Origin: Halichondria panicea | Taxonomy: Eukaryota > Porifera > Demospongiae > Suberitida > Halichondriidae | Length of the DNA: 64,000 bases | Direction of reading: 5' to 3' | Assembly (NCBI RefSeq): GCF_963675165.1 | Contig: NC_087380.1 | Span: forward strand, 760,303 to 824,302 | Shown here: positions 1 to 36,547 of the stretch, one piece after another | Position numbering within the stretch: position 1 is the first letter of the stretch | Layout of the letters: every line of letters begins with the position of its first letter | Position numbers and translations under genes: made by a program | Notes under the pieces: generated by a model | Databases searched by the model: none | What the model saw: only the letters and a program-made list of their open reading frames with translations | Told to the model about the DNA's origin: nothing

Positions 1-2331
1 CTGAGGGTACTGCCCCTGGCTTGTGGACCCTGAGAGCCTTGACCACCTGGAACACATCCACCACTCCCTCTGTCTTGCAACGGTCAATGGTAGTAGCTAC
101 ACAGAGAAAAAAGATGTGCTAATTTAGCACGGAAAACCGTGCTAAACGAATGTCTCCAGTTTTAGCACGTTTGCACATGTGCTAAACAACCTGATGTGCT
201 AAACTGGCACATGTGCTGAAACAGCTGTGCTGAAACAGCTGTGCTGATTGTATTGTGCTAAATCAATTTCAAACATTAAACAACAATAAAAACAACAATA
301 CATCAATACAGTATTGATGAGGATATACAAAAAAAGGTTTTTTAAACATAGTTAGTTAACCATAGCAAGTCTGCACTCAGTTCACTGCAATTGTAAGATA
401 CTGCCTTTGACTTCTCAGCATCACCTGCATGCGTGAAGTAGAAAAATATGTCACATAAAGCCATAACCAAGTATAAGAATAATTAAAGTGCGTATAGATT
501 AGGTACATACCATCAGTCATAGCATGCATGAACAAAGTATGCTAATGAAACTTATAATTATTATAGGGCGAAATAAGAAAAGCCTTTGCTGTGATCCATG
601 ACAAATGCCGAGTGCATGAAAAGTACATGAACCAAAAGCAAAGAATTGTAGCTACAGAAAAAGTCCTATAACACAAATAAGACCAAGAGGAAGGGTACGC
701 TACTCGAATAGACTGTACACAGGAGGCAAACTCACTATTGCATGTAACCACAGCCACTTGAGATACAACAATAACAATAACAATGCTGATAAGGAAAAGC
801 AATGAATAAAATTAGTAGTAACCTCACTAACGTATTCATCCATCATCGCTAAGATTTTACAGTTTATACAACAGCATGTGATTGTGACGTAGGTTAGACA
901 GAATGCTTACTACGGTTAGTGGAGTTGCGTACTCTTCCTAATGAACTCTTAGTAAGACATTATAGTCGTTTTTACGCACAATTAAGTTTGCGAGACTATG
1001 ATAATGCAAATGAGTTCTTGTTGTGCTATTATAGAGCAGCATCAATATTCGGGCCCATCAATTCATCTCGTACAGAAAGCAGATTGAGAAGTTGTCTTCC
1101 ACTGACAATACTCGTTGTAAGGGCTAAACAACAAATATAATCCACTACAAGCCTTCTCTTAATTGTCAGAAAAGAGCTGCATATAAAGCTTAATCCGAAA
1201 CGATATAAAAGTTTAATTAAACTGCGTTGTCCTATAAATTATTATATCAATAGAACTGTTAGCTTAAGAGGAACAGCTACAGCTGCAAGGCCGGGCAGAC
1301 AATATGCTACAGGTGGCAGTATAGATTTGCATTAATTAGGAGGGTGTGTGGCAATCAAAAATCGTTTTGCGCACAAGGAAATTTGGGATTTCCGTAGCAG
1401 CAATTTTTATCAATTATGAACTTACAAAGTGGTAAACGTTTACATAGTACGTGCATAATATACACTGATACAGCGCAAATTAAACGCTAAAAAGGACGCT
1501 CAAGATAAGAGCTTTTTTCTGTTGTTAAAATTACTTTGGTCACCCCCATGCAGCTATAGTTATCATGAAATTTTGCAGCTTGCTAGCTTTGTATTATAGC
1601 TACATGTAAGATAGCTATAGCAATTATGCTAAGATCAAAATAGTGCGGTGAATGGTGCGTTATATTTCTTTGTTAGATCTATGTAGAACTATAGGCTTAT
1701 AGCAAAGCAAAATTTAGCTAGATATTATGTTACTAGAGGATTGTCGCTTTGTATTCAAAAACACAGCACACCGCATTTGTAAAGTGCAATGGTATATAGC
1801 AACGGTACAGTAAAATACGCTTTTAATACAGTACTTATCAAAATGGAAACACTTTAAACGTACTACGCAAACGGAATGGGATATTGACCGCTGTATACGT
1901 ATATAGACAGATAACTAAGTCAGATAAGTATGGTATACTGTTGCAATTGTTTTTTGGGTGAAGCTACTATACCTAAAACATTGTGGCAATACAGCAGCAT
2001 AATAATACATACCTCCAATTGTGTCGATACTTTACAGTGGTCTGGTCATACAAGGGTGTCCAGTATAATGCTCTCTCCAACACGTGTCACTTTCAACATC
2101 ATCCTGCAATACGGTTTTTCACATCAATTCTTACAACAATAATTAATTATATAGTACCTTCAAAAAAGTACGACCACCATTTTGAAAGAACTTTAGACGT
2201 GAGAGGGAATTAGGCGTATTTTTGCGAATGGCGTGGTTAATTGGATAATTTATTTTGTGAATTTGGCCCTTCAATTAGAGTGGCGCTGTAATTATGCCTC
2301 GCGGTGCGCATGCGCAAGCGAGGTATACGGT

Positions 2332-2401
<70 letters not shown>

Positions 2402-5400
2402 CTATTTCAGCTGCTCAAGGAAGTGCAGGTAAGAGTTTCTATAGGCTTCTAGTCATGTTTTCTTGGCTTAATTGCTATTTGTGGATTTGCTAAATAAAGC
2501 TTCGTTCTCGAGTTATGCCTGGTTTTGCTTACTTGGAATACCATTGCAGCCTTTTCAGAAGAGTCTGTAGCAAAACTCGTTCACCGAGTGTTGCTACTCT
2601 ACTTAGTAGTTAGTTCTGCACTAGAACACTAGCTGCAAGAGTGAGAAGAGAGCTGCAAGGTTCTGCTGACTTGCAGCCATTAATTTTAGACTTGAACTTT
2701 AATTAGGCATCAATTGTTTTTAACAACAATCATGGGTCGATCACTACGAGTTTCCCTGTGATTGCAATAATAATTATCATCAATCAATGTGTGTATAAAA
2801 GCTAGCTATTAGTAGTTTTATGTTATGTAGCTTTGGCACCTCCACCGAGGCCGCGGTGCTTTCATTAGAAGTAAATAACTCACTTATTGTGCTATGAAAC
2901 TTGGGCAATATAGGCTTCAATTGGTCTCCACTTTGTTGAGCCCCATTCAACCTGCTTGTCCTTTCTGCATAATTATTATATTGTAGAGTTATTACAGGGT
3001 GTCATACAGGATTTTAAAGTAGAGAGGGGAAATATAAGGCATTCTTAAAAAAAAAGTCAACTGCATGTTATTTCAATACCCTGGTTAGTAGCTATACAGG
3101 CTATGGATACTCAGTCATACAACATTGCTAATACCTGAATGCAAATTTTAGGGGGGGGGGGGGGGGTTGGAGCCAGGGGGGGATACTCCCCCTGTGTACT
3201 GTATGACACCTGGCACAATACAATAGCTGTGCAATTACATTGTACAGATGCTCCCCTGTGTACTGTACAACACCTGGTACAATACAATAGCTGTGCAATT
3301 ACATTGTACAGATGCTCCCTTGTGTACTGTACGACACCTGGTACAATACAATAGCTGTGCAATTACATTGTACAGATGCTCCCCTGTGTACTGTATGACA
3401 CCTGGTACAATACAATAGCTGTGCAATTACATTGTACAGATGCTCCCTTGTGTACTGTATGACACCTGGTACAATACAATAGCTGTGCAATTACATTGTA
3501 CAGATGCTCCCCTGTGTACTGTATGACACCTGGTACAATACAATAGCTGTGCAATTACATTGTACAGATGCTCCCTTGTGTACTGTATGACACCTGGTAC
3601 AATACAATAGCTGTGCAATTACATTGTACAGATGCTCCCCCTGTGTACTGTACAACACCTGGTACAATACAATAGCTGTGCAATTACATTGTACAGCATT
3701 GTTCAGCATGTTGAGGGAAACTTACCTAGTTCCACAGTTTTGTCAAACAGCTCTCAAACCATGTCTAAACTCAACTTCTTTTCTTCTTTGCAAATAAAAA
3801 AAAATTTTTTGTTGCTATGCAGCTGCAGCTGCACATCTGTTGTACTGCATGCCCTTATTTGGTACTGAAAACAGCACACTGTGCTGAATTAGCATGTTTA
3901 CCTGTTTCAGCACACCCATTACATTTAGCACAGTCCATTTAGCACATTAATCGAACATCAAAATCACAAGCCATGAAAAAGCACACCAATACAACACGTA
4001 GGCTGTGCTATATGCCTACAAAACAGCACATGTAGTGTGCTGAATCACTGTTTAGCACACCACAGTGCTAATATAGCACACGCTCAGGGTCTAAAACAGC
4101 ACACCTCTTTTCTCTGTGTACAGAGCAGTACATACCAGAGCGGGTCGCAGTGTCACTGGAAACAATACAATATAATTAGGAACTTATTATAACAGATCCT
4201 CACCTGCAGTGGACCACAATCGCCTTGTTTCCAGTCCTCCTTTAAACCTTTATAACCTCCTCATTCATGTCAGTTACAGCCTTGAGGTTTGCACATGCAC
4301 CAGTCGACTTCCAATCGAGAATTTGGATTTGAATTATTTGCTGAGTTTGCTTAGTCTGGAGGAAAAAATAGGAACGATAAAGAAGCAACCACAGTGATAT
4401 ACAAGTACACACCTTTTTGTTAAGCACGCTCAGTTGCCTCATAACGAACCCAGTGTTGGTTTCCTCCCCCAAGTTATCGATGGTGAACTCACCGAAGGAG
4501 GTGACATTGCCACTCTCTGGCCAGTACTGGGAGCATGCCTCCTACACACACACACACACACACTCAACAGGGAGGACCTCTAATGGAGACCATCTCTTAC
4601 CTGCCCATTCTCACTGAGTGGAGTCAACATCACAACAGCCGCACACTTCCTATCATAGATCATCTTCCAGAAGTTACGCACAGTTGAGTCCAGTGGATTC
4701 TGGGCAATGATGTATGCCTTCTGGTGCTTGTAGCCCTGGAGGGAGAGAGGGGGAACACTGAACAATGTGCTCCAAATGATAGTACGTGCTACAATAATTA
4801 TGGTGTGCTTAGATTAGTGATGTGTTTCGGGTGAAAATTTTCCATTTTTTGAAGTGAGTGTTTTTTTCTAAATCAAGTCTGTTTCCCGGAACTATCTTTC
4901 GTTGTTCATAACTTGGGTAGCAAACGTCCAATTAAAAAAATAATGCTGTAGCTCTTTGAGTGCCTTACGAACTCAAACTTACATTGACAAAGACGGCATT
5001 GATGTAGTCACGACCTGGGTCCTCTCCTTTCAGGAACACACGGTGATTCTCAACTGTGGAGTTGGTAAAGGGGCGTTTACATATAATCAGGTAAAGGTCG
5101 TTTAATCTAAAATCTAAAACCTTAGTAAATACTTACTTGGTAGGTACTGTATTCCCCTGTTCAGGTTCTTGTGTCTCAATGCACTACTGCAGTTGACCTC
5201 ATTCGGATTTGGAGATACTTGTTCCAGAATTTGGAACTGGTATTGGAAATCTGAGAGGGTTTTTCCCGGGGCCACTGATGACATCTTCTGTATCTGTCTG
5301 CGCAGATCTCCAGCACTGATCTGAGTGTCTCCACACGTCACTGACTCCAGGATTGCATCGTGGATGAATACATATTGGTCCTATAGGGACAGGGCAATGA

Positions 5401-8400
5401 GCATGCTCAGTAGAATCAATTCAAAATGGCAGTGTGTGAGCTGTTTCACTGTTAATGTCATTAGACTACCGGTAGTAGATAAGATCTACATGGGAAGTAC
5501 ATGGGAAAAGTTCCTCAGAGCAGGTATACTATGAGACTTAGTATACCTTCAAATTTACTTAGTATACCTAGTATTCCGTTGTCAAGTAATTGTATTGTAG
5601 TCAAGCAGTTTGCTAACTATTATTTACTAATAGATGGTAGTGCTATTAGTTGGGTCGAAAACAGCAAAAAGCCCCGGCCCCTCTGGATCTCAGATAGAGT
5701 TATTTTGACTTTATATATCTGTTGCCCATATCATTTGTGTGACAAATGTGAACTGAATTGAACATTATATGAAAAAGTATAAAAACAGCAATTTAAACTA
5801 CAAACTTTTGTCATTCTTCCCCTGATCAGTTTCTTCCGTGAGATAATCTAGAGAACTGCAGCTCCACAGCACAAACTAGACACATATTACTATCCTCTGT
5901 TGTCTTGGATACGTCCCTAACTAATCGCTTTCCCTCAAAGTTAAGTCAAATTTGCTAGGGTGGAAGCTTTTTATTTTTTTTTCATTATTTTCTTACCGAG
6001 TATGCTCAAACATAGCTAATTGCCCACACACCTCTTACCGTAGTGTTTTGTACTGTCGATTCTTACCTCTCCAGTTCCGGAGATAGTCTAGTCGATAAGC
6101 TGCTTTAGGTTAATATGATGACTGCTCTTATTCTGAGCTGCTTATGCCTTATTATAGATCTAATAATCACTGCATGCATATAATCATACGTGAACTAGAT
6201 TTACTACTAGTACAAAAACTTCATGGTTGACAGATGCACAAAAAAAAACTGGAACAGTGTCAGCTAATGCAGCTGAAACAAGTTGTTGTTCTTATAATGG
6301 TGGCAATGCATAGACTGCAGATATTCGATCTATAGCTAACGTACCTACAAATTGGGGAAAAAGTGTACAAATAAGTGCAAATAACATTTTGTGAAAAAAT
6401 GGGGGAGGTAGGGTTGGTATAATAATTTATTGGTTATTTTATGGTTGATATTGGCTTGGTTGGAGCACTACTTCTCCTTTTTAACTATCATTACTTTTGC
6501 GTTCAGGTTTTCTACTGGCGTTTCATGATGAAGAGGGTAAAAAAAACTAGCCTTATTAATAATAATTATATCATAAATTATTACAACTATAGACCCTCAT
6601 GCAGCTGTTGACATGAATATATAGAACCAGAGGAGTGTTCAGTTATACAATCACTGCAATGGGTCTAACAAACTACTTTTAGTAGACTGGTAAAGGATCA
6701 CATCAGCTGAAAATAATTATCGTGATTAAATGCCCATGGTAAAAGCTGTCTTTGTCAATAAACTCCATGTCAATAAACGCCCATCTCAAACAAAGCCAAT
6801 ATCAACCATAAAATAACCAACACCAAACCATATCTTGTTTACGTCCTTTTTGGTGTTTGAACGGCTCAGCCAACCCTACTTCCCTCCTATTTTTTCACAA
6901 AATGTTTTTTGCGCTAGTTATATATATATACTGTGGGTACTTAAACTGGACAGATTACACGTTGTTATCCTGTATTAGCTGGTATCTGGCTAATGGTTAG
7001 CTCATACGCAAGCAGTCGATACCAGGCCCACTCTCAGAGGAAGTGGGCGTGAGGACGAGGCTAGGCACATACCCATTAAGCTTTATAATGGCCATTTTAT
7101 TTTTTATTATAATGTGTACAAATGATACCCACTTTCCCTGACTACATGTAATCCTCTACACATTCTTATCAGTTAGACTCAAAGGAGGTCCGACATGCGT
7201 GCACGAATCACTATAAGTGCCAGTATATTGGGCTGGACCTTATCACGTGACCGCAATGACATCAATGCACTGAACTTGTAGTGATTTGTGCACGCATGTC
7301 GGACCTCCTCTGAGGCAGATTGAATTATATACATGTAGTTACTTGTTTCTGTGTCTATATAGTACTTACCTGGGTCTGGACCATTTTCATTCTCTGATTG
7401 CGAGCTCTGACAATGGTGCCGGAAATATCGACCATACCCTCGGCTGCGATCTGATCGAGAACATTATCAAGGGCAATGTAAGTGCCTGTGCGTCCCACAC
7501 CAGCACTGCAGTGGACCAGGAGGGGACCTCTGGATGGCTTGTGTAGGGACTGGACCCGACGATGGAACCCAAGAATGGGCGTGGCATAGTCAGGCACACC
7601 GTGATCAGGCCACGTCGTAAAGTGAAACTGAGTGGTCTTAAAAGGTTTCCCACTTTCCCCTTTGATCTGTGACAAAGAAACATCTCACGATAAACTACAA
7701 TAACAAATCCAAAGTGAAAAGTTGTTAGTTGAGGAAACACGTGGAAACAAGAATCTGGCGAGAGCATAACTCCAATCCATTACAATAAAGACAAACATTT
7801 CACAATAACAAAAGAAAATGTGTGCATGAAAGTAAACTTCCAAAAAACACAATGCTAATAATGTCAACATGTGCCACTATTATGCTATTGGGGTGCTTAC
7901 TGTAAGTAGTAGGTTTCTGACAGTGTAGTCAGCCAGGACCTGCTGGTCTGTGATGGTGACTGTGAAGGGGCCATAGTTCACACTGCCACTGTCTGGCCAG
8001 TACTGTTGACACTTGATCTTGTTGTTCTCCATGACGTTGGTGAGCATGACTATTATGGGTGGTCTCTCTTGCCACATGAGACGCCAGAAGTCCACCAGGG
8101 TATTGGGTAGTGGTCCTTTGTGTGTGGAGGAGGGATAGACATATTGAAAACAAGCAATGAAGCATTTAACAATAGTTATGATTGTAAAAGCAAGCACACA
8201 GCAATTGTGCAGGCTGTGTGTACAGAAACAATATATATAAACTGATACCTTGAGAAGCAATGAACTTCTTTGGCTTGTCAAAACCCTACAGTAGAGAGGG
8301 TGAAACCATGGTAAACATAAACATGATAATTGCACGCTATAGTAAGGTTGGGTCGAAAATAGCAAAAGGCCCCCCTCTGGATCTCACCCAAGACAATTTT

Positions 8401-11400
8401 CGCTATTTGGCTCCAGAGCCACCAATAGCTTAATTTGCATGTGAAATGCCAGTGTGTGGGAGTTTATCCCCGTTTTAATTTTCGCGTTAACTGCTCTTCC
8501 CTCGAAAAACGAGAAATTTTTCACCTCCCGAAAATTTCCCGCTATACAGTATATTATAATTATTATTATTGATTGCAATTGTTGACAATAAACCCACACA
8601 GTCAGTATAGAAGAGAGCTTGATGGCTTGATGATGAATAATCTTCAAGGATAGAAGATATCAAGAGTATATAGACAAGAGTAAGAGTGTTGAACTGCTGT
8701 AGTAAACGTTCAGACAATTGTCATCCACACTGTTGCAGGCTGTGAGTCTGTGTTAGCATAGCAGGCTACGGGGTAGCTATCAGAATGCTATCAGACGGGC
8801 CTTCAATCGAACTTTCAATCCACTTCTGTTTGTGTGACATCATTGTTTTACTGAGCATATATACACGTTGTTATCCTGTGTTAGCTGGTATCTGGCTAAT
8901 GGTTAGCTCATAAGCAGTCGATCCCAGACCCACTCTCAGAGGAAGTGCGGCCTGGTATCGAGGCTAGTTTTTAGATAGCTATAGTGCTGTTCTATAGCCG
9001 CACACTGTCCTATTAAACTTAGCTAGCTTGCATGCTGCTCATGCCCGTTTTAATTATTCCGGACATCTCACGTGCGCTATAAAGATCCGTTCAAATTATA
9101 CCCGGACAATTTCTAAATGTTTGCTGTCCGATAAATTAGAAAGATATACGGTACATTGTTATTCATGGAAGAGACAGCCCTATAATCATTAACTATATTT
9201 CCAAACATCCTAAATTCCTGACCCTTTAGTCATAACACACACACACACACACACTCACGTCTACATAGGAGGCATTGATGTAGTCACTCTGACAGTCCTC
9301 TTGTCCAGGGATGGGGTCTAGGATAATGAGGTTGCCATCATCTGCAGAACAAAAGGGCAAAGATTGTCAGTCGCACACCCACCCAATCTTGCGAAAAGCT
9401 TAATTTCATTTATTTACGATGGTTGGAATCCAACCTTTACTACTAGCAGATGATTTTCAGCGGCTATATCCAACTAGTTAATGGAATCCTACGTACATGT
9501 GTCTAGGTTATCTTACATAGTCAATCACAGTGTCTTGATTATTTATTTTGATTGGGCATCAAAAAGGCAAAACGCTCTTCAGCTAGGTATTTAATAGCTA
9601 GGGAACTATAAATAGTAAACCAGAAACAAAAAACAAAAGAGCAGACAACACAAAACCATACAGGAAATACTGAATAGAAAAAGCAAGCTGATAACGATGC
9701 ACCAACCCTCCCCATTCATCTGTTGCATTCAGAGACACATACAACTAGTACACTGAATATAAGCTACTCACATGCATTGGGGCCATGCTAACTGCAAGCT
9801 ACTCACATCGAGGTCATGCTGGCATAAATTATAGGACATATCTTGGACTTGATATTAATTGGTTGCTGTATCACTGTATGCTTGGCTGTACTAGTAGACA
9901 TGTTGTGTGTGTTAGAGGCTCACACTAACTGGGAGGCCTAATTATACAGCTCAATACAAAACTGTACTGTCTGGGCCAGGTTGTGTGGTTAGTAGCTGAT
10001 AAATGGGTTGGTCTATGTGGTTGATCTTCTATGGAAATGCAAAACAAAAAGATAAATCTCTTAGGGTTAGTTCTAGGCTTTAGTCAAAATAAATAGATAT
10101 CAATGTGCGTGCTGTACCACATGAGTCCAAAATAAATCCCCTCTAACAAAGTACTGATTCTACCTCAGGAACTTACACACAAGAATGTTTCCAAATCTGT
10201 TTTCATCTTTGTGCTGTTTGGCAATTGCTGTTGAGTGTTCACCTTCCTTACCACCGAGACCCTGTGCAGTGTGTGGGTGTGGGTGTGCTGGAGTGAACAT
10301 CATAACAATAACAAGGCAAGTCTATTGGTGAGGTAATAAGTACAGCACAATCACTGTACATGTACATGTAATTACTGTACATGTATTAAACCCACCGAAT
10401 AGTTGTTGGCAAACTTCTTGTTTCCATTAGCATGCTGCTCAGTGACATATGCTCCAAACCCATCCACTGGTATAGGAGTGAGGTCCACCTCATCTGCCAC
10501 CTCTGCTTCCCCTCCCTCTGGTACTACTATCAACTGGAGCTCTTTCTCAGCTGTGCCAGAGGGTCCACTGGCCACCAGCTTATAGACACCTGCACACACA
10601 CACACACAAGGAAATGGTTACCATATCACAAGTGGTGTGTCTAACCCACACACATACACACACACACACACACTCTGCATATTGATATATGATATTATGA
10701 TAGTTGACATTTTGGGACTAATGAGACGTGTGTTTGTTAAACTGAAGTGCATTTTCAATATGAAACTTTACAATAAAGAGTTGTACCAGCTGTAGTCACT
10801 TTACACTAACAAGACCTTGTGTGTAACCTGTACTCTCACCAGCATGTTTCATTTCCACACTAGGGAAGGATAATCCACCGTCCTGGTCCAGTTCTGTGGC
10901 ATAGTCTGCAGTCACCTTCCTACCATCGTGGTACCAGGTGAGACTGGGTGGAGGGTAACCTCCCACCTTGGGCTTAATGACTACCTCCTCCCCTTCATTA
11001 CCTCTGCTCTCACTGGGGAAGCCAGTGATGGTAGGCTCTGTACATATTAACACATACACAGGTCTTAAGTGGTGAAATTCATTACACTAATCATAGATAG
11101 AGTAGAAGAGGGATTGGAAACGGAAGTACCCTCGAAGTACCATCCGTGTATCTCCGCGGTTTTAATTGAGGCTTACTTTTTAACACGAGGGCTAAACATG
11201 AATAATTCATGAGAATTGTTTTGCTCTCTGTAAGAAGTCCACGAGCAGTTCTGCTGCTAAACATCAACTTTCTCTAATACTTGAGGCCATTTGGGACACA
11301 GGACACTATTTAGTTACAAAGCCTTAGCTATATCAAAGGTACTATAGGAACACAAGCATGAAAAAGCGCTCTGTGTACCTCTAGCTACTTCACGACAATC

Positions 11401-14400
11401 GAGATTATATTTTCTTTGTTTCCAATTGATACCTACTATCAGGGGGCATGTGATCAGTAATGGGGGGTAGCTCTGAGATGTATGCTTTGGACACAATAAG
11501 TTTCCCGGGCTTTTGCGGGAGTTATGAGGAGATACACGGATGGTCCCAGAGCCACTACGTAGACTTCATTGTAAAACATCACGTGAATCACTTCCGTTTC
11601 CAATCCCTCTCTACTCTATCTATGCACTAATCAACAGCACTGACCTTGATCCTTTGATATGGTGGCCACCCCGTCAGTATCGCTGTGTTTGGTGTATACA
11701 GTAGAGAAACCAGAGTTTTTAGCAGCAGGTTCATACTGCTTCTTCCGTGAGCGTCTGTAGAAATAATAATAACAGTTGTGTTGTCATACTTCAGTGTCTA
11801 TATAAGCTATTCTGGTGCTGGATACACGATGAACAGGCTGTTGGAGGCTAGCTAGATCCACAATGAAAGTATATAATTATATATATACACACTGCCTGGT
11901 GGTACCATCTGCATGGCTTACCTCAGGAACAGTACTAGGAATATGATGAGCAGGATCACCAGAATCACCACCACTATAGCACCGACTGCCCCACCAATAG
12001 CAGCAGCAGGGAAAGGGTTAGAGACTAGGGGAATTGAACAGTTGTGAGTTAGTCTGTGCTTGCATAATTCAACCTCACTCACCAGTCACCATGACACAAT
12101 GTGTAGTGCTTGTCCCACTCTCCCTGGGCACTTGACAACAGTAGGTACCAGCTACTTCACTGGAGCCCTCAGCATAGTTCAGACTAATGGAGCTCATACC
12201 TCGTGACACATAGAATCCATCCATGCTTGATTCAGGAATGTTTCCGCCTGGTCCTCTCCACCCTCCCAGAGCAGTGCTGCCATTGTTGTCCTCTCCTCTG
12301 CAGCAGGTGATGAGCTCAGTGCGACAGGTGAGGGCAGAGGATCCAATGTCTGCCAGTGATAAGGCAGAGTTGTTGGTAATAACACTCGATCCACTGCTCA
12401 AAGGAATCACTGAAAACAGAAACAGAAAGTCAAAGCACATGTATGCATATATAATGATAAATACGTTTGTGTGTTAACTACTCTTACAGTTGCACACTGG
12501 AGCTTCTCTTGACCACACTCCACTTGTTCCACTTGCTCCACAAGTTCTGGTCTCACTACCAACAATGTTGTATCCAGTGTTACAGGTGTAGGTAGCAGTC
12601 ATCATGAAGGTGGTTCCAGAGGGTGTACTGACTTGTCCATTGGCAGTGTTATTTAGGGGACCGCAGTCAACAGCTAATAAAACATACACAAGAAAGTAAG
12701 TTAGCTGTAGTGTACATTTTATTTAAAGCACTCACGATCACAGGTAGGTGCTGTTAGGCTCCAGGTTCCATTAGCTTGACAGGTTCTGTTAGCTGCTCCA
12801 TTGAGATTGTGCCCATCATCACAGGTGTAGGTGGCTGTGTTCATGAAGGTGGTTCCAGAGGATGTGTTGACTTGTCCGTTAGGAACAGTGAGGGAACCAC
12901 AGTCAACAGCTGTGGAATATAAACACAGTGGATACAGTGTACACAGTCAGTCATTACTCACGTGCACAGGTGGGGGCATCTGGAGTCCACTGTGTATCAG
13001 CCCCACAAGTCCTAGTTGCAGATCCAACAATGTTGTATCCAGTGTTACAGGTGTAGGTAGCAGTCATCATGAAGGTGGTTCCAGAGGATATGTTCACTGC
13101 TCCATTGGAGGGGTCAGGGAGGGAGCCACATTCAACAGCTGTATAAGGATATCATTGCATAAACCAAATTAAAACATGTGTTAGCTCAACTAACGATTGC
13201 AAACAGGTAGAGATGCACTCCATCCACTGACAGCCACACAATTCCTTGTGCTAGCACCACTCAGTTCATAGCCAGTGTCACAAGAGTAAGTGGCCACTGC
13301 TCCAGGTGGTGGAGGATCATCAGAAGGTAAGTAGGTCACCATTCCATTGGAGAGGGGATCACGAGGACACAGAGCTGTGTGTGAGGATATAAGATAATTA
13401 TGGGGAATCATACTTTAATTATCTCACCATCACAAGTTGGTGCAGCTCCACTCCAGATTCTATCAGCCTGACATGTTCTAGTCGTAGATCCCCCCACCCG
13501 ATTGTAACTAGGGTTACAGGTGTAGGTAGCAGTGCTCCCAAAGGTGGTTCCAGAGGTTGTACTGACTTGTCCATTATTAATAGTCAGAGTTCCACAGTCA
13601 ACAGCTAAACAACAAACATGGTTGTAAGTTATGTTAATGGTTAGACAGTGTACTCACGATTACACACAGGTTCTGACCCACTCCAGTCTCCACCAGCCAG
13701 ACAAATCCTGGTCTGATCTCCACTACGTGTGTAGCCATTGTCACAGGTGTAGGTAGCAGCGCTTGAGAGGGTGGTCCCTGTTGTCACGACTCCTCCATTG
13801 GTAGGAGCACTCAATGATCCACAATCAACTGTAAGGAACAATCTTCCATGAACACTGTACTTATATGAACATGACATGTTCTAACCTATACAAGTTGGAG
13901 TACCACCACCACCTAGTGCACTCCACCCACTGGCAGTACACATCCTTGTTTGTGTCCCAAAAATTGCATAGCCAGTGACACAGCTGTAGGTGGCCGTGGC
14001 ACCAACAAGTCTGGGTATGGGGTTACTGTACATAACCACTCCATTGGTCGGTAGTTGGAGGTCTGGACAATTCACTGAATAGAAATAGCAGTTAGTTACA
14101 CTCATAAAGTTGTCAGTTTGAGTACATACGTGTACAAGTGAGGGATGTTCCACTCCATGATCTGTCAGACTGGCAGGTCCTAGTGCCTCCACCAGTAGAT
14201 ACTCTATACCCTCCATCACAGCTCTGTGTAGCTGTGGTTCCCTCAAGGTGTGGTGAGGTACTAGAGCCGTAGCTGATCACTCCATTGAACAATGTAGGGA
14301 GGTCATCACAGGTGGCTGTGGGAAATAGTCTGATACAATACCTTCAGTGTTGTGTCTTACCTCTACACACTGGTGCTGTACTCCAGCTCCCACTAGACTG

Positions 14401-22500: not shown

Positions 22501-23879
22501 CCATTGGTGGGGTCAGTGAGGGGGCCACAGTCAACAACTACAGTGTATAAGAATGGGCTCATAAAACAAGCAAATAGAGCCTTATAATTTAACGTACTAT
22601 CACAAGTTGGATCACTGCCACTCCAGTCTCCATTAGCCCCACAAGTCCTAGTGGTGTCTCCATTCAGATTGTGGCCACTGTTACAAGAGTAGGTAGCAGT
22701 GCTCCCAAACGTGGTAGTGGATAAAGTAATCATTCCATTGGTGGGGTCAGTGAGGGGGCCACAGTCAACAACTGCAGTGTATAATAATAAGCTTTAAAAA
22801 CAAGAGAATGTGAGTAACTTACGAGTACATGTTGGATTAGTCCCACTCCACACTCCACCAGCCCCACAAGTCCTGGTCATATCACCAGTCACAGTGTATC
22901 TAGTGTTACATGTGAAGGTGGCCACGGTGTTCACTGGTCTAGTATTCATGGTCTCCGCATTATAGCCAATCATTCCATTGGTTGGAGCAGGCAAGTCAGA
23001 GCAGGTAGTGGTGCTGACTGCACACAATATAATGAAAGCAATTTTACACTCTTGGTCGGTACAGATGGCCAGGATAAAATTTAATGACAATGCTAGAAAA
23101 ATATTGATAATAGTTACTCTTACGTTCACAAGTGGGTCTCACAGTGCTACTCCACTGCATTGTGACATCATTACAGGTGATGGATGAGATGGTCGCCACA
23201 GCGTACCCAGGGTTACAGGTGTAGGTGGCCATGTTGGTGGTTGCATCGTATGAGATCATTCCATTAGACAGTGGACTCAGTGTGGGGCAGGGAGCTGTGG
23301 GGGTGGGGGTTAGTATTGGACATAGACAATATAGTCAGCACTCACTGAAGGTGACACATATCCTCTCATTGGTGGCAGTCCTCACACAGCAGTGTTCTCC
23401 ATCAGGACTGAAGTGTGTGGGACCACGCTGCAGAGAAACGCCAAAATTAGGAATATCTCTGCTGAACAATTCATCCTGAACTGCCAACGATCTACTTTCA
23501 AGTTGCAATGCACTCCCATCGGGGAACATCCACAATACACTACCAGTGTCTTCGGTGTAGCAAACCCAGGGGCGTGGATTACCACTAGCTCCTGATCCAA
23601 CAGCAGAGAATGAGATGATCTCTCCAGTGTGGTCAGTGACATCGGGCTCATTGGATGCTGCCATTCGAGCTGAGTAGTGCATGTGTGTTTATCCTAATAC
23701 TAGTTCACCAACTCAATATTGTCAAGAGACTGACGACATGCAGGATCTCTAGAGTAATGTACAAGTAGTCTAGCTACAGAAACTACACACAATAACTCAC
23801 ACAGTGTTTGTGCATGTACCCATCCAACAGACACCGTCAGTCCTAGTAGTAGGCTTAGAGCAAGTCTTGAGAAGGCCAT
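16558..23879 (-). CDS. Receptor A: sushi/Ig receptor with ITAM-like tail (exon interrupted by element)
   Basis: Signal exon 23,800-23,879 (MAFSRLALSLLLGLTVSVGW). Exon 2 (about 23,682-23,345) is an Ig-like module with VLWMFPDG and EHCCVRT. Ten CCP exons lie between 23,300 and 18,065; the sixth is split by the element at 19,147-21,922. Then come an Ig domain (17,930-17,640; FTCSLSGG ... YQW ... DAGQYNCQV), one exon (about 17,500-16,873) with a Cys-containing module (SSHVTYRAVLTGTESVS, VVQSAGLSV, CPIVIANLNSPEC), a Thr/Pro stalk with a short duplication (MATPTSSMATPTSF) and a membrane segment, and a last exon (16,740-16,558) with HDYEGLSKLQEEATYEVVDQ and PRPPPP. The tail resembles an ITAM; ligand unknown. 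The membrane-proximal module has no family I can name. A type I surface receptor; function as recognition receptor is inferred. Confidence 0.8.
19147..21922. mobile_element. 2.8-kb foldback element inserted at TA in a CCP exon
   Basis: Ends CAGTTCATTTAGTCTAGAGA at 19,147 and its inverse ending at 21,922, with TA at 19,145-19,146 and 21,923-21,924. The inverted arms are long, about 660-730 bases (19,147 to about 19,880; about 21,250 to 21,922), with a further small palindrome (AAGTGGGCGTAC) only in the left arm. The CAGT end and TA target suggest a Tc1/mariner-type origin. The inner 1.4 kb has no recognisable transposase. Taking out the element plus one TA restores GWSALIGGTPTCT in frame, the normal CCP C-terminus. 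Confidence 0.88.
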
Positions 23880-26611: not shown

Positions 26612-27368
26612 GACTCGCAAGCCACTCCCTTTTCTCTGATTGGACGGGGGCGGGAGAAAAGGGACTGGTGACTCTGGGACACATTTTGTGTGTCTACCAG
26701 AATTTGGGTAGAGATTATTCATTGATTTTTCCACGTGATCCAAAAATTGCGTGAGGTTAAGTAGAATTGCGTAGCCTGCAAAAGTGATCGCGGGCTTCTT
26801 AGCTACAGTTTAAGAATGGATGCTAGTGCTAGAAAAGAGAAGATGATGGAGTAATAACATCATCAGGCATTCAGCTAGGATATAGTCATCTAAGACACCA
26901 GCAGAGATTAGCTTGTTTTAGTTTTACGTGATGAGAACTGGCAGCCGAAAGTCATTGGTTGCCTAAAGCTTTTAATAACCTGTACAATACAAGACAGATA
27001 ATGGCAGACGGCAGCAGTTGAATTGAGAGTAGTCAGATTTGTACAAGCTGTCTTAAATCGCTGCCACTCCTCGGTTCAAAGAAGGACTGCCAAGATTTCT
27101 ACGTTCATCAGCTGTTCCATGCTAATCCACAAGTTGTGGCACAACAGACACTGGTACAAGGATCTATAAAATCAAAAGGCTGGCTAGATAGATCTGTATA
27201 CTTGTCTTCTGTGTCTTTAGCTTTTAACGCATCAGAATAAATTGGATAATTTGCACATGACATTAATATTTAATAGCATTCCTGATTTACACAAGCTGTA
27301 GCCCAGAGTCACCAGTCCCTTTTCTCCCGCCCCCGTCCAATCAGAGAAAAGGGAGTGGCTTGCGAGTC
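26612..27368. mobile_element. 757-base TIR element with TA target
   Basis: Near-perfect arms of about 66 bases, GACTCGCAAGCCACTCCCTT ... GGACTGGTGACTCTGGG at 26,612-26,677 and the inverse at 27,302-27,368. TA lies on both sides (26,610-26,611; 27,369-27,370). The interior holds no recognisable transposase. Confidence 0.85.
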
Positions 27369-27429
27369 TACTGTTCGCCTGCAACAGTGACGGCTTGCGA
27401 GTCTAGGCCTTTCCCGAGGGCCTTTCCTA

Positions 27430-28327: not shown

Positions 28328-31300
28328 CTACTTGTTCTCTGTGTTGCAGTCAGTGGATGCATATATAAGCTGCACAGGCTGAGAGCTGGTATAGACAGCA
28401 GGAGGAGGGGGGCGTGGCTGGTCCACCACCTCATAGGTAGCCTCCTCCTGTAGTTTGCTCAACCCCTCGTAATCAGGGGAGGGGAGATGACTCATCACCA
28501 CTGGGGGTAGTCTGTACAAAATAAAAGAATAAATTAAATCCGGAGCGTTAGCATGTAGAAAATGTGTACAAAACTATATGTAGCGGCTATGGGTAGATTA
28601 CAACACAATGCCCTCACTCTGTTGTTGTGATGCTGGTTTTGTTGTCAATGTCCTTTGACCCATACCTCCGCTGTCTCCATACCAACAGCACCACTGCTAT
28701 GACCACTAACACTGCAATAGTCACAACCACAACTCCAGCAACCACTCCCCCAGCTACAGCACCAATGTTCACAGCTTCACTTGAGGAGGTTGTCCGATTA
28801 GTGATGTCCTCAGGGCATTCTGGACTATTGAGGTTAGCAATGACAATCGAACAACTGTTAGTCACACTGAGGCCTGCACTCTGCACCACAACGATTGGAT
28901 CATTCTCAACCCACTGTTCCATTAGCCTAGCCAGTTGTATGGTGGACACACTCTCTGTTCCAGTGAGCACAGCTCGATAGGTCACATGACTAGGGGAGGC
29001 ATCGGAACAAACAATGTCAAAATGAGGGAAGAGTTGAATCCACAGGCACACTGGCTTTCAATGCCTTGTGTCAGACTATTGGTGATGTCATCTGTTTTCA
29101 TATCAGCGTTCTAGTTCAGTGTACACTCTGCAGTTTGTTATTCCCTCCAGACCAAGTTGAATGTGCAGGCCTGTGGAATGTGGAGTGGTTGGCATAAGCA
29201 AATAACAGACTGATGCTAATAGAGCTGTACAAACAATGTAGCCGTGGGTACATGTACATTCATGTGAAATTGATCACTTAACAACTTACTCATGAACTCA
29301 ATGGTGTAGTGAGCAGCTACAGTGTGTTCCCCCTCAAGCTGACTGGAGGTGAGGATGACCTGACAGCTGTACTGACCAGCGTCTGACAAGTAGAGAGTGT
29401 CAAAGTTGAGGGTTGCTGTGCTGGTCATGAGTGACCCTCCCTCCCTCGTCCACTGGTAGGAGAGGGTGGGTTGTAGAGAGGCCCCTCCACTCAGGGAACA
29501 AGTGAGGGAGAAACTCTGACCAGCCATTGGAAGACCACTGGAGGTGATCACCTGTATGGCTGGATGGAAGAGAGTGGGTGTTTGCTATATAAGTGATCAC
29601 AGCTAGGAATTCTGTGAAGATTACAAATGTAATAAGAATGCAGTTTCAGTTTAGTACCTGAGTAAATATCTACTGACAACAGGTGGCTACAATAACAAAT
29701 ATGAATTAATTACTTGATCCTGCAAATAACTTGCGTATGTTCACAAGTTGGCAGCATTTTAGAGTCCACTGTCCATCATCATAATTATTTGCGTATGCTT
29801 AAAATGATATCAGGAGTACTTTCATGCACTCTTGGTGATATGAATATATAACGGGCAATTTAGTGGATCAATTATGCCATATACAATCCCCCTCCATTAT
29901 TAGAATAGTTTGCGAATGAGCCAAATCAGCAGAAATATTCACAATTTGTAACTGTGTTCGTTAGGTACATGTGCATGTGATATTAAATTCGTGGGTATAA
30001 AGGTTCGCAGTAGATGCGAAAAACCACGAACATTTATACCCCAGAAAGTCAAAGCACATGTTTGTGTGTGTGTCAGCTAGTCTTACAGTTGCACACTGGA
30101 GCTTCTCCTGACCACACTCCACTTGTTCCATTTGCTCCACAAGTTCTGCTTTCACTACCAACAATGTCGTATCCAGTGTTACAGGTGTAGGTAGCAGTCA
30201 TCATGAAGGTGGTTCCAGAGGATGTACTGACTTGTCCATTGGCAGTGTTATTTAGGGGACCACAGTCAACAGCTAATAAAACATACACGAGAAATAAGTA
30301 AGTTAGCTGCAGTGTACATTTCATTTAAAACACTCACGATCACAGGTAGGTGCTGTTAGGCTCCAGGCTCCATTAGCTTGACAGGTTCTATCTGATGCTC
30401 CATTGAGATTGTGCCCATCATCACAGGTATAGGTGGCAGTGTTCATGAAGGTGGTTCCAGAGGATGTATTAACTTGCCCGTTAGGAACAGTGAGGGGACC
30501 ACAGTCAACAGCTGTGGAATATGAACACAGTGGATACAGTGTACACAGTCAGTCATGCTACTCACGTGCACAGGTGGGGGCATCTGGAGTCCACTGTGTA
30601 TCAGCCCCACAAGTTCGAGTGTCCGATCCAGCAATGTTGTATCCAGTGATACAGGTGTAGGTAGCAGTCATCATGAAGGTGGTTCCAGAGGATGTGTCCA
30701 CTGCTCCATTGGAGGGGGCGTCCAGGGAACCACAGTCAACAGCTGTATAAAAAAGTAAACAATCAGAGCATGTGTTAGTTCAACTAACGATTGCAAACTG
30801 GTAGAGATGTACTCCATCCACTGACAGCCACACAATTCCTCATACTAGCACCACTCAGTTCATAGCCAGTGTCACAAGAGAAAGTGGCCACTGCTCCAAC
30901 TGGTGGAGGGTCATCAGAAGGTGAGTAGGTCACCATTCCATTGGAGAGGGGCTCACGAGGACACGGGGCTGTGGAAACATGAGGTATCCTCTATACACTT
31001 GACTACTACACGAGGCATACCAGTACAGGTGGGTGCAGTTACAGTGTCTGTGTGTCTGTGTGTGTGTCTGTGTGTGTAGACTGCTACAGCTGCTCAAGGA
31101 TGAATCAAGTGCAAGTAAGAGTTTCTTTAGGCTTCTAGTCATGTTTTCTTGGATTTTAATTCGTGGATTTGCAAAATAATGCTTCGTTCAAGCAGGAGCC
31201 CATAAAGAAAAGGAGCGGCTAACTACGGGGATCACGTCTCGTAAGTGGTTATGACCGCATTTCCATATATGCAGGGTCACTTAAGTGGTTGAATCCCTAC

Positions 31301-32538
31301 ACGTGTTATACGCAATGCAGGAATGCGGTTTGCAAGCACTTAGTCGCTTCCATACAAGGAAGTGCGGTTTCACCGGCAATTACGAGATGTGATCCCGGTG
31401 TACGTTGAAGTTAGCCGCTCCTTCTCTTTATGGGCTCCTGGTTCAAGATATGCCTAGTTTTGCTTACTTGGAATGCCTTTTCAGAAGAGCACGTAGCCAA
31501 ACTTGTTTAATGAGTGTATTACTTAGTAGTTAGCTCTGCACTAGAACGCTAGCTATTGGTAGCTGCAAGAGTGAGAAGAGAGCTGCAAGGCTCTGCTGAC
31601 TTGCAGCCATTAATTTTAGACTTGAACTTTTGGCATCGATCGTTTTTAACACAATCATGGTCAATCATTACCCACTCTTTGAGTTTGCATGCAGTAAAAT
31701 ATTGCAATAATAAGCTATTACCGTATAGCGGGTAATTTTCGTGGGGTAAAATATTCGTTATTTATGCTTTCATTACTCTAGTCTTACTTGTACAAATGAC
31801 TGATGGGGGTGGAGACCAGGTACCAGCACTAGTACCATCACTCATACAAGTTATCGGAGTAGCTCCACTGATGGTGTACCCAGTGTCACAGGTGTAGGTG
31901 GCCATGTTGGTGGTTGCATCATATGAGATCCTTCCATTAGACACGGGAGTCAGTGTGGGGCAGGGAGCTGTGGGGGGTGGGGGTTAGTATTGGACATAGA
32001 CAATATAGTCAGCACTCACTGAAGGTGACACATATCCTCTGATTGGTGTTAGTCCTCACACAGCAGTGTTCTCCATCAGGACTGAAGTGTGTGGGACCAC
32101 GATACAGAGCAACGCCAAAATTAGGAACATCTCTGATGAACACTTCGTCCTGAACTGCCAACACTCTACTTTCAAGTTGCAATGCACTCCCATCGGGGAA
32201 CATCCACAATGTGCGGTGTAGCAAACCCAGGGGCGTGGTGGATCAGTGCCAGCTCCTGATCCAACATCAGAGAATGAGATGATCTCTCCAGTATGGTCAG
32301 TGCCATCGGGCTCACTGGATGCTGCCAGTCGAGCTGAGTAATGCATATGTGTTTATCCTAATACTAGTTCACCAACTCAATATTGTCAAGAGACTGATGA
32401 CATGCAGGATCTCTAGAGTAATGTACAAGTAGCTACAGAAACTACACACAATAACTCACACAGTGTTTGTGCATGTACCCATCCAACACACACCGTCAGT
32501 CCTAGTAGTAGGCTCAGAGCAAGTCTTGAGAAGGCCAT
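28328..32538 (-). pseudogene. Receptor B: broken sushi/Ig receptor paralog
   Basis: Same plan as A and C. The signal exon 32,459-32,538 is nearly identical to that of A. Exon 2 (32,346-32,010) has lost about 13 bases against A and C near 32,215, shifting the frame between the PRPWVCYT and WMFPDG parts. CCP exons remain at 31,960-31,790, 30,970-30,785, 30,745-30,565, 30,512-30,340 and 30,272-30,080. One CCP is cut off at about 31,020-31,040 by the dispersed repeat, and a decayed one lies at 29,740-29,790. The Ig exon (29,560-29,290) is open. The membrane-proximal exon has stops and frameshifts at 28,990-29,160, but the part from SHVTYRA through the membrane segment (28,985-28,620) and the tail exon (28,519-28,328) are open. 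I read it as a pseudogene; a short alternative product is possible. Confidence 0.75.
31193..31440. mobile_element. 248-base MITE with 7-base target duplication
   Basis: Arms CAGGAGCCCATAAAGAAAAG (31,193) and the inverse ending TTTATGGGCTCCTG (31,440), each about 31 bases. GTTCAAG is repeated on both sides (31,186-31,192; 31,441-31,447). The CAGG-type end and the length of the duplication suggest a hAT-like origin, although hAT usually duplicates 8 bases. It splits the dispersed repeat copy at 31,040-31,690. Confidence 0.87.
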
Positions 32539-32787: not shown

Positions 32788-35700
32788 CTACTTGTTCTCT
32801 GTGTTGCAGTCAGTGGGTGCATAAGCTGCACAGGCTGAGAGCTGGTAGTCTGCAGGAGGAGGGGGGCGTGGCTGGTCCACCACCTCATAGGTAGCCTCCT
32901 CTTGTAGTTTGCTCAACCCCTCGTAATCATGGGAGGGGAGATGACTCATCACCACTGGGGGTAGTCTGCACGAAATAGAATAATATATGGAATACATTAA
33001 CTCACATGTACATAATTATAATTATTCTAGTATAAGGGCAGAAGCTCTCTATACAACCACACTGGTATGTACAGCTACTTCATTCACAGACCATGCACAC
33101 TAACACTCACTGTGTTGGTTGGCTGCCTGTCTTCTCATCACTCATGTCCTTGGATCCAGACCTCCGTAGCCTTAGTAACAACAGCATAACCAGCACAAGC
33201 AATACGATCAGTACTAGCACAGCAATGACCAAGACTCCAGCAACCACCCAACCAGCCACTGCACCAACATTGACCACTACACTCTCTGTGGGTGAGGTAG
33301 TAGCAGTTGTCCGATTAGTGATGTCCTCAGGGCACTCTGGACTATTTCTGTCAGTGATCACCATAGGGCAAGTGTTTGTCAAACCAAGTCGGGTACTTTG
33401 TACTATGATGCTTCGAGTGTCCTTGATCCATTGTTCAGTTAAAGAAATTAATTCCACAGCAGATACATTCTCTGTTCCAGTCAAAACAACTCTGTAGGTC
33501 ACATGACTAGAGGAGCCCTCGAAACAATCAATGAACTCGTCAGTGAGAAGGGAGGGGCTGAACCCACAAGCACACAATCCTTCAACACCTTGAGATAGTC
33601 TTGTAGTGATGTCACTGGCTTTGGCCGTTGTCTCTAAGTCAATGTACACCTCACAGTTTGTTATTCCATCCAGACGAAAAGTTGAATGTTGAGTGCTGAA
33701 AAAACAAATTAACGGTCACAACATGAGCACTAGCTATGCACAGTCCATAAATGATTTTACTTAAATGGATACAATGTCTAGACATAGTGGCACTTACTCC
33801 TGAACTCAATGGTGTAGTGAGCAGCTACAGTGTGTCCCCCCTCAAGCTGACTGGAGGTAAGGATGACCTGACAGCTGTACTGACCAGCGTCTGACAAGTA
33901 GAGAGTGTCAAAGTTGAGGGTTGCTGTGCTGGTCATGAGTGACCCTCCCTCCCTCGTCCACTGGTAGGAGAGGGTGGGTTGTAGAGAGGCCCCTCCACTC
34001 AGGGAACAAGTGAGGGAGAAACTCTGACCAGCCATTGGACCACCACTGGAGGTGATCACAGCTAGGAGCTCTGTGAACATCATAACAATGTAGTTTCAGT
34101 TTAAACCTGAGTAAACACATCTAATGGGACGACAGATGACAACAGGTGGACCACATGAATTATAGACAGCTAATGTAAACATACAATTGATGTTGCTAAT
34201 AACTTGCGTACGTAAACAGGTTGGAGCATCTGGAGTCCACTGTCCATCAATACCACAAGTCCGAGTGTTTGCTCCAATGAGAGTGTATCCAGTGTTACAG
34301 GTGTAGGTAGCAGTCATCATGAAGGTGGTTCCAGAGGATGTGTCCACTGCTCCATTAGAGAGGGCGTCCAGGGAACCACAGTCAACAGCTAAACAACAAA
34401 AATTAATTTGTATTTGATTATTGATGGTCATACTGTACTCACGATTACAGGAAGGTTCTGACCCAGTCCAGTCTCTATTAGCCTGACAAGTCCTGGTCAT
34501 ATCTCCACTACGTGTGTAGCCAGTGTCACAGGTGTAGGTAGCAATGCTTGAGAGGGTGGTCCCTGTTGTAGTGACTCTTCCATTGATAGGATCACTCAAT
34601 GATCCACAGCTAACTGTAAGGAACAACATTACATGTGTACAATGTGCCTATTTAACTTCTAACCTGTACAAGTTGGACTACCACCATCAGACCACCCACT
34701 GGCAGTACAGGTCCTTGGTACACCTCCACTGAATTCATACCCAGAGATACAGCTGTAGGTAACCGTGGAACCCACAGCTCTGGGAATGGTGGGGTCGCTG
34801 TAGGTCACCACTCCATTGGGCGGTAGTTGGACGTTGTAGCAAATCACTGAATAGAAATAGCATTTAGTTAAATATAACTCCTAAAGTCGTCAGTTTGAGT
34901 ACATACGTGTACAAGTGAGGGGTGTTCCACTCCATGATCTATCAGACTGACAGGTCCTAGTGCCTCCACCAGCTAACACGGTGTACCCAGTGACACAGCT
35001 CTGTGTAGCCATGGCTCCCTCTAGTACGGGGGATGAGGGTGGATCGTAGACGATGAATCCATTGGTGAGGGTGAGGAGAGGACAGATAGCTGTGGGGGAA
35101 CACTTGATATCAGTTCAACAACACATCCCCCTCACCAGTACAGACAGGGTCATCTCCAGTGCTCCATCCACTAGCAGTACACGTCCTCACCATCAGTCCA
35201 GTCATCTGGTAGCCAGGGTTACAGGTGTAGGTAGCTGTGCTCTCAAAGGTGGTACTGGGTGTATCAACCATACCATTGGAGGGGTCGGTGAGGGGGCCAC
35301 AGTCAACAACTGCAGTGTATAATAATAAGCTTTAAAAACAGGTGGCCACGGTGTTCACTGGTCTAGTATTCATGGTCTCTGCATTATAGCCAATCATTCC
35401 ATTGGTTGCAGCAGGCAAGTCAGAGCAGGTAGTGGTGCTGACTGCACACATTATAATGAAAGCAATTTTACACTCTTGGTGGGTACAGATGGCCAGGACA
35501 AAATTTAATGACAATGCTAGAAAAATCTTGATAATAGTTACTCTTACGTTCACAAGTGGGTCTCACAGTGCTACTCCACTGCATTGTGACATCATTACAG
35601 GTGATGGATGAGATGGTCGTCACAGCGTACCCAGGGTCACAGGTGTAGGTGGCCATGTTGGTGTCTGCATCGTATGAGATCGTTCCATTAGACAGGGGAC

Positions 35701-36329
35701 TCAGTGTGGGGCAGGGAGCTGTGGGGGGTGGGGGTTAGTATTGGACATAGACAATAATTATAGTCAGCACTCACTGAAGGTGACACATCTCCTCTCATTG
35801 GTGGCAGTCCTCACACAGCAATGTTCTCCATCAGGACTGAAGTGTGTGGGACCACGATACAGAGCAACGCCAAAATTAGGAATATCTCTGATGAACACTT
35901 CGTCCTGAACTGGTAATGATTCACTTTCAAATTGCAATTCACTCCCATCGGGGAACAGCCACAATACACTATCAGTATCTACGGTGAAGCAAAACCAGGG
36001 ACGTGGTAGACCACTATATCCTGATCCAACATCAGAGAATGAGATGATCTCTCCAGTGTGGTCAGTGCCATCACCGAATTCATTGGATGCTGCCAGTCCA
36101 GCTGTATGCCAAAATACAATAATTGATGCTCTGATACCAAACCTATAATACTTGTTTCATCTACTATCCAATAGCACAGGTTAGTATTAGCTTAGCCATA
36201 ATTATAGCTGACTGTATGATAGTATCTATGCATGATCTATATCAACTCACTCAGAGGCTGCTGTCCATACACAAGAGAAGCACTTCCCAGCAGACAGCAG
36301 AGAAATAACCTTGAGGGGAACATTCTCAT
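32788..36329 (-). CDS. Receptor C: sushi/Ig receptor with ITAM-like tail
   Basis: The signal exon 36,252-36,329 (MRMFPSRLFLCCLLGSASLV) matches the RPTP signal exon, not those of A and B. Exon 2 (about 36,100-35,775) has VLWLFPDG and EHCCVRT. CCP exons: 35,720-35,555, a truncated one at 35,440-35,340 (last half and donor deleted), 35,315-35,135, 35,090-34,900, 34,850-34,665 (Cys-Tyr for Cys-Pro at its start), 34,620-34,440 and 34,395-34,205. Then Ig (34,083-33,795), one exon with the Cys-containing module, stalk and membrane segment (about 33,690-33,107), and the tail exon (32,970-32,788) with HDYEGL, TYEVV and PRPPPP. It ends in ENK-stop like A and B. All CCP exons appear to have the same phase, so skipping the truncated one would keep the frame. 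A probably functional surface receptor; ligand unknown. Confidence 0.78.
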
Positions 36330-36547
36330 TATTCTTGTAGCCAAGAGTTCATTATTCATCCTATATTAAACTCTTGCTAGGTTAGCTGATATATATTGCT
36401 CAAAATTAATTAATTGCATTCTTGAGAATCTGATTGGATTCATACTGAAAGCACACACTATACAAAGTCATGATAAGGAAGTGTGCACATTAAATTGCAG
36501 TTCTATAGAATAACACTGTTCAGTGGTCCCAGTTAGTGTGTGTAGTG
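36330..36547. other. Gap between receptor C and UHRF1
   Basis: AT-rich, no repeat family or coding sequence recognised. It contains the presumed promoter of receptor C and the 3' end of UHRF1. Confidence 0.4.

Follow-up and report, generated by a model that had tools for sequence, protein, structure and literature searches.

Introduction

Paired receptors of vertebrates, such as the KIR, LILR, SIRP and FcR-like families, are encoded in clusters, evolve fast and carry near-identical ectodomains on opposite signalling halves. Their inhibitory members recruit SHP phosphatases via immunoreceptor tyrosine-based inhibitory motifs (ITIMs; [SIVL]xYxx[ILV]), and the pattern YxxL/I-x6-12-YxxL/I in a cytoplasmic tail defines the immunoreceptor tyrosine-based activation motif (ITAM). 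Here we describe a stretch of 64,000 nucleotides from the 131 Mb genome of the sponge Halichondria panicea (contig NC_087380.1, here C4; C4:760303-824302; hereafter the window), in which one gene for a receptor protein tyrosine phosphatase (RPTP) and three genes for receptors with ITAM-like tails (receptors A, B and C) share ectodomain sequences. Unlike in the vertebrate paired receptors, the phosphatase is here the receptor itself. Judged from the sequence, the window is probably one part of a paired recognition-receptor locus with a phosphatase member.

Draper of Drosophila has an ectodomain of EGF type, and to our knowledge the Alr receptors of Hydractinia have Ig-type ectodomains without CCP arrays and include no phosphatase member. 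Draper is a precedent for an invertebrate ITAM read by a Shark kinase: in the Draper-Src42A-Shark pathway the ITAM recruits Shark, whereas another product of this one gene, the splice form Draper-II, has an ITIM and brings in the phosphatase Corkscrew (PMC4503800). Alr is a further set of invertebrate recognition genes, for which ITAMs as well as ITIMs have been reported (cited in PMC12065747). The oyster receptor CgIgIT2 is likewise an invertebrate Ig receptor with an ITAM, and binds microbes; it differs in having five Ig domains and in that a phosphatase partner is not described in the part of the paper cited (PMC11999971).

The nearest known system is that of the fester family and fester co-receptors (FF/FcoR) at the fuhc locus of Botryllus. 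These receptors have Ig and Sushi ectodomains, polygenic haplotypes, tails with ITIM, hemITAM or YxxI/L/V motifs and a role in recognition, and the sponge genes are like them in their Ig and Sushi ectodomains, large gene sets and tyrosine-motif tails (PMC12065747). They are unlike the sponge genes in that the opposing signal is an ITIM; CD45-like RPTPs are named in the cited part of that paper only among expressed signalling proteins and not as members that share an ectodomain (PMC12065747).

The vertebrate receptor phosphatases CD45 and CD148 control ITAM phosphorylation at contacts and are described as acting by size exclusion; their sharing the ectodomain of an ITAM receptor is not described in the cited part of the review concerned, which deals with RPTP ectodomains and in which the terms sushi, complement control and paired do not occur (PMC10815196). 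Term searches of PMC6208332, PMC11999971 and PMC12018476 likewise gave no RPTP sharing a paired-receptor ectodomain. Among the open-access literature matches listed, with subscription papers largely outside, we found no paired-receptor system in which an RPTP shares its ectodomain with the other members, nor, among such open-access matches, phrases for a cytoplasmic Ig domain in an RPTP. A review calls the mechanisms of invertebrate allorecognition a complete mystery and describes the candidate genes of sponges, cnidarians and ascidians as lacking conservation (PMC12065747). For the self/non-self receptors of sponges this locus is a concrete candidate with the hallmarks sought in such genes, being clustered, polygenic, diversifying and putatively tyrosine-signalling. 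It would also be a form of paired receptor with the phosphatase as partner which, if true, would set kinase and phosphatase against each other on one ligand more directly than ITIM and SHP do.

Ectodomain sequences shared between the RPTP and receptors A, B and C

The four genes lie side by side on the minus strand; read with transcription, C comes first (36.3-32.8 kb of the window), followed by B (32.5-28.3 kb), A (23.9-16.6 kb) and the RPTP (15.8-4.1 kb). An earlier note on this DNA had claimed that their CCP exons and even introns are near-identical in places, and that one gene ends in a catalytic protein tyrosine phosphatase (PTP) domain and the three others in a YEGL-x8-YEVV tail. Both statements hold: the phosphatase signatures WPDHG and HCSAGVGRTG are read in the one gene and the tail in the three others, and in self-BLAST the RPTP (12465-13379, minus strand) matches gene B (30064-30973) at 91.4% over 920 bp, introns included, gene A at 88.8% over 427 bp and gene C at 96.7% over 337 bp. 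The block shared with B comprises four CCPs, for which dS is 0.12 and dN 0.05, and of the aligned bases in its three introns 35/46, 51/52 and 58/62 are identical. The pair of CCP exons singled out in the note (12673-12488 and 30272-30087) differs by about seven substitutions in 61 codons. Sharing of ectodomain sequence is therefore confirmed, at a level that chance would not produce. The homology between the RPTP and B ends inside the intron after the last CCP, as is expected of recombination between symmetric exons. One-way donation from B to the RPTP was considered and dropped, since the same four-CCP block is also present, at 86%, in an RPTP at C4:1.36 Mb; because that RPTP carries the block, the direction may have been from RPTP to B.

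For a tree of CCP exons, 132 were extracted from the genome, from which 13 of unclear gene and ten of a tail-less fragment gene (split by coordinate from the RPTP at 721 kb) were removed. The 109 remaining comprise 39 from four RPTPs, three of them partial, and 70 from tail receptors. The tree requires 25 changes of class, at least 21 of which are forced by well supported branches, compared with a mean of 32.2 for shuffled classes (one of 500 shuffles was as low), and a single clade of RPTP CCPs is rejected (p-AU 4e-44). The phylogeny of these exons had been named beforehand as a test, an ancient separation of the RPTP from A, B and C being the outcome that would speak against pairing; no such separation is found.

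The N-terminal Ig domain (N-Ig), whose sharing had escaped the earlier note, is also common to both classes. Its tree holds 39 exons (14 from RPTPs and 25 from tail receptors; excluded are the fragment gene, the broken copy of B and a single distant copy), the class being assigned by gene order or, for the four rows at 1.74-1.81 Mb, by location alone, with only the genes L086 and L087 read through. It requires 12 changes of class, at least six of them forced; since this is close to the shuffled mean of 11.7 (343 of 500 shuffles were as low), N-Ig holds no trace of the inner half to which it is joined. A single clade of RPTP N-Ig exons is rejected (p-AU 2e-56), and N-Ig is exchanged between the classes still more freely than the CCPs. 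Taken with the shared blocks, the two trees place homologous ectodomains on two different signalling halves. The earlier note's interpretation of the genes as paired receptors is partly supported by this mixing of both domains across the classes; its main example, gene B, is frame-broken.

By gene order, N-Ig precedes the cytoplasmic Ig exon in 14 of the 17 RPTPs of two clusters, comprising all nine of an array at 1.27-1.38 Mb and five of the eight at 530-800 kb. L086 (1.3584-1.3630 Mb) carries on one strand N-Ig, CCPs including the four-CCP block, the same Ig domain, the transmembrane (TM) segment, the juxtamembrane region and the cytoplasmic Ig domain. In L087 (533-536 kb) the reading runs from N-Ig through CCPs, Ig and TM as far as the beginning of the cytoplasmic Ig domain.

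A genome search with the tail exon gave 51 matches, which represent 47 exons as four of the matches are second halves. On C4, 26 of these lie at 538-793 kb (some partial), five at 1.385-1.417 Mb and 12 at 1.739-1.806 Mb; two are on C8 and one each on C10 and C12. The first exon of the RPTP cytoplasmic Ig domain has 37 genomic copies at 68% identity or more: eight at C4:533-771 kb, interleaved with the tail genes on the same strand, nine at C4:1.273-1.377 Mb, where the second group of tail exons follows directly, 18 at C4:332-481 kb and two on C1. Eight weaker matches (27-32%) were judged to be other Ig domains. Members of both classes are thus clustered in one locus at C4:530-800 kb and again at 1.27-1.42 Mb.

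Selection on the outer and inner parts

Compared by pairs, N-Ig has a dN/dS of 1.60 (5-95% range 1.18-2.16; 278 non-independent pairs; dS about 0.08), against 0.27 at the same dS for the TM-juxtamembrane-cytoplasmic Ig part of the RPTPs (five RPTPs, three partial in one piece). A codon model for 24 N-Ig rows gives an omega of 2.43, and omega = 1, with kappa taken from a coarse grid, fits about 18 log units less well; this tree-based value of 2.43 could be biased by gene conversion, whereas the pairwise value is independent of a tree. N-Ig is under diversifying selection and the inner half of the RPTP under constraint, so that fast evolution (omega 1.6-2.4) is found in the domain which would face the ligand. 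The ratios of the CCPs are lower: in pairs of at least 85% identity dN/dS is 0.82 between RPTP and tail receptors (32 pairs) and 0.70 among tail receptors (110 pairs), and for one CCP type a grid favours an omega of 0.6-0.8. Within the tail exon, the two-tyrosine module has a pairwise value of 0.35 compared with 0.86 for the rest (26 sequences).

Architecture of the RPTP

The RPTP gene begins with a signal-peptide exon (MATVTLFLCCLLGSVSLVYGQ; 15712..15775, minus strand, as for all features of the four genes), which is like that of gene C and of one kind with it, and whose phase 1 splice site fits the first CCP. The ectodomain comprises 13 CCP (Sushi) exons (12488..15560), all fitting phase 1-1 splice sites; the single one run against Pfam was assigned to Sushi (E 1.2e-9). 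A membrane-proximal Ig-like exon (LTC...TYCCQV; 12083..12409), for which Pfam gave nothing above its cut-off, is followed by the TM exon (11922..12024), in which the TM stretch is identical or differs by one residue across the five RPTPs compared, and by a juxtamembrane exon (11754-11645). Two exons (11037-10840 and 10589-10396) encode an I-set Ig domain (Pfam I-set, E 8.8e-12), and the juxtamembrane exon and this domain (10396..11754) are in frame between the TM exon and the first PTP domain (D1). Read by hand, the splice phases agree where the signal exon joins the first CCP and along the whole stretch that leads from the last CCP to the I-set domain; this domain, lying between the TM segment and D1, is therefore placed in the cytoplasm.

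D1 is complete and of active type (7370..10261; ENRFGNIL, WPDHG, HCSAGVGRTG) and matches Pfam Y_phosphatase over the whole profile (positions 1-234, E 1.5e-77); among solved structures it matches best those of receptor phosphatases S (sigma), LAR, alpha and epsilon, and CD45 ranks lower. The end of D1 and a second PTP domain, D2, follow at 4100..5380. The gene thus has a signal peptide, a single TM segment and a PTP domain with HCX5R and WPD, as RPTPs do. An intact tandem D2 is lacking in the window copy; some RPTPs have a single PTP domain, and a broken D2 is therefore no bar to membership. We also considered that the RPTP might have no start of its own and serve gene A as an alternative 3' end. 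This is ruled out by its own in-phase signal exon and by the N-Ig that all nine RPTPs of the 1.27-1.38 Mb array have of their own.

Architecture of receptors A, B and C

The three receptors follow a common plan of signal peptide, N-Ig, CCPs, an Ig domain, stalk and TM segment in one exon, the stalk containing cysteines, and a last exon with YEGL-x8-YEVV. For N-Ig there was no Pfam match above the cut-off and no PDB match below E 0.2. Receptor A (16558..23879) has a signal exon, N-Ig at 23673-23341, CCPs at 23294-18064, Ig at about 17913-17640, the stalk/TM exon at about 17492-16874 and the tail exon at 16735-16558. Receptor B (28328..32538) is built in the same way, with an open tail and with frame-broken N-Ig and stalk exons. 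Receptor C (32788..36323) comprises a signal exon, N-Ig at 36111-35770, CCPs at 35718-34185, Ig, the stalk/TM exon at 33679-33110 and the tail. The CCP exons recovered, 13 in the RPTP, nine in A, five in B and six in C, all have fitting phase 1-1 splice sites, the only phase for which the scan looked, so that others may exist; damaged CCP exons of A (near 22060-21924) and C (near 35450) were not recovered by it.

Tails and signalling components

The motif Yxx[LIV]-x8-Yxx[LIVM] is present in 30 of 31 tails scanned (the best 30 of the 51 tail matches, and gene B). An ITIM was found in none of these 31 tails nor in that of C; in place of an ITIM-bearing inhibitory member, there is a second class with PTP domains at its end. 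In four receptors read from more distant sets, at C4:1.88-2.19 Mb and 122-234 kb, the module is YEEV-x10 followed by YEII or YEMV. A spacing of x8 or x10, and YE as the first two residues of either motif, are thus conserved across groups that are about 30% alike in the stalk. We note that these distant receptors, with their YEEV-x10-YEII-like tails, form a second large group, and that PTP matches without a cytoplasmic-Ig match lie at C4:2.10-2.33 Mb.

Genome searches gave 71 SH2 matches and at least 156 tyrosine-kinase matches. Among them is a gene with the order SH2-ankyrin-SH2-tyrosine kinase at C9:5255.3-5259.2 kb. The ankyrin repeats that separate its two SH2 domains make it a Shark-type kinase and rule out Syk. 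A tandem-SH2 kinase of the type that reads ITAMs is thus encoded in the genome, and may be the reader of the YEGL-x8-YEVV tail. Elsewhere, an SH2-SH2-PTP arrangement is found, by position only, at C3:8404.6-8406.3 kb, and an SH2 domain resembling that of PI3K p85 lies at C4:1812617-1812823 beside the tail cluster at 1.74-1.81 Mb.

Proposed model and alternatives

We propose that the two classes draw on one pool of ectodomain exons, a fast-evolving N-Ig and a string of symmetric CCPs, which in each gene would be joined either to a stalk-TM-YEGL-x8-YEVV half or to a TM-cytoplasmic Ig-PTP-PTP half. Exons would pass between the classes by unequal crossing-over or gene conversion within the tandem arrays and, because they move in this way, both classes would keep seeing one class of ligand. 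On contact with the ligand, which would be borne by a microbe or by another cell, whether kin or not, Src-type kinases would phosphorylate the tail receptors, a phosphorylated tail would dock the tandem-SH2 kinase, here of Shark type, and receptors of the phosphatase class, gathering at that ligand too, would remove the tail phosphates and so set a threshold. Restraint by the phosphatase is our choice of sign. The arms of kinase and phosphatase would then track the same ligands, and ITIMs with SHP recruitment would be unneeded. The broader reading, in which the genes belong to a megabase-scale complex for self/non-self or microbe recognition in an early-branching animal, with the RPTP itself as the inhibitory or gating half that swaps N-Ig and CCP ectodomains with ITAM-like receptors, is put forward more tentatively, at somewhat less than an even chance.

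Several observations weigh against pairing. The CCPs are slightly clustered by class, since one shuffle in 500 was as low as the 25 changes observed. The RPTP of the window and that at 674 kb are without N-Ig, and the RPTP at 721 kb is the third of the 530-800 kb cluster without a clear one, its N-Ig being doubtful because the tail-less fragment gene lies between. None of the N-Ig matches listed in the genome search falls at C4:332-481 kb, where there are 18 RPTP copies, 16 of them interrupted by a stop within the part matched. Within the recent cluster the tail exon is not separable from neutral (a grid omega of 0.8-1.0 is best; 0.61 by pairs, 5-95% range 0.35-1.03). Among the 31 tails the first tyrosine is lost in one and a stop occurs in three; the second motif is YxxV, and valine at Y+3 lies outside the strict YxxL/I. 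All three receptors read on C5 (L072-L074, 45-47% alike in the stalk) have kept the first tyrosine (YDYI, YEYI or YDFI) and lost the second, and a Syk without ankyrin repeats was not identified among the kinase matches listed. Finally, each of the four window genes carries a lesion, in the RPTP an in-frame TAA at 4244-4242, directly before the HC(S)DTATRSG signature of D2, which may be avoided by an unseen splice.

One rival reverses the sign. CD45 and CD148 also have an activating role, and the RPTP could in the same manner dephosphorylate the inhibitory tyrosine of Src-type kinases and so activate the tail receptors, with the shared ectodomain bringing it to the same contact. We set on the side of this rival the ranking of the D1 structural matches (sigma, LAR, alpha and epsilon first, CD45 further down) and the review of CD45 and CD148, which describes them as restraining ITAM signalling (PMC10815196). 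The sequence itself holds nothing that decides the sign, and an enabling, CD45-like role appears possible but doubtful.

It is similarly doubtful, in our view, that the four window genes are mostly relics, with the living system elsewhere in the genome. Relics would explain the lesions: as assembled, gene B has a 13-nt gap in N-Ig and frame changes of 1 nt and 7 nt in the stalk exon, and is probably a pseudogene or a secreted form; one CCP exon of A is interrupted by an element at 19145-21924 with inverted ends of about 590 bp that are 90.5% alike; one CCP exon of C is cut; and D2 of the RPTP has its stop. Against this, A and C have open exons for N-Ig, stalk/TM and tail, their damaged CCP exons could be skipped with the frame kept, and D1 of the RPTP is complete.

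A further explanation is that the sharing is a by-product of tandem location through unequal crossing-over and gene conversion, the two classes having separate adhesion roles and no functional pairing. The end of the shared block inside an intron, the symmetry of the recovered CCP exons and the many lesions of the arrays, which are typical of birth and death, all suit this explanation. It is less in keeping with an N-Ig that is diversifying rather than homogenized beside a constrained RPTP inner half, and with classes that over two clusters are distinct inside and mixed outside, and we consider it unlikely. Least probable is that the YxxL...YxxV tail is an endocytic sorting pair of the YxxPhi type, the AP-2 motif, or a set of independent SH2/PTB docking sites on scavenger or adhesion receptors, for although the second motif ends in valine and the number of tyrosines varies (as in L030 and the C5 receptors), the conserved spacing and YE starts between distant groups and the ITAM-reading type of kinase in the genome speak against it.

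Other features of C4 and the window

At C4:959-1009 kb there are 11 N-Ig exons with no tail-exon match. This cluster was considered as a third signalling class and rejected, as the two stalks read are frame-broken and the signal exon of the next gene follows directly after. A tyrosine-kinase array, among the matches listed, lies on the same contig at C4:2.52-2.76 Mb. In the window, a tandem array of units of about 64 bp at 96-98% identity (3189-3696) lies downstream of the RPTP. Short palindromic or repeated MITE-like elements are found at 15916-16333, 45433-45722, 55132-56081 and 62043-62379; one of these follows gene A and precedes the RPTP start. Between genes A and B, open stretches at 26025-26612 on the plus strand resemble fragments of a RecQ-type helicase, and UHRF1-like RING-finger and YDG/SRA-like stretches adjoin receptor C at 37097-39330.

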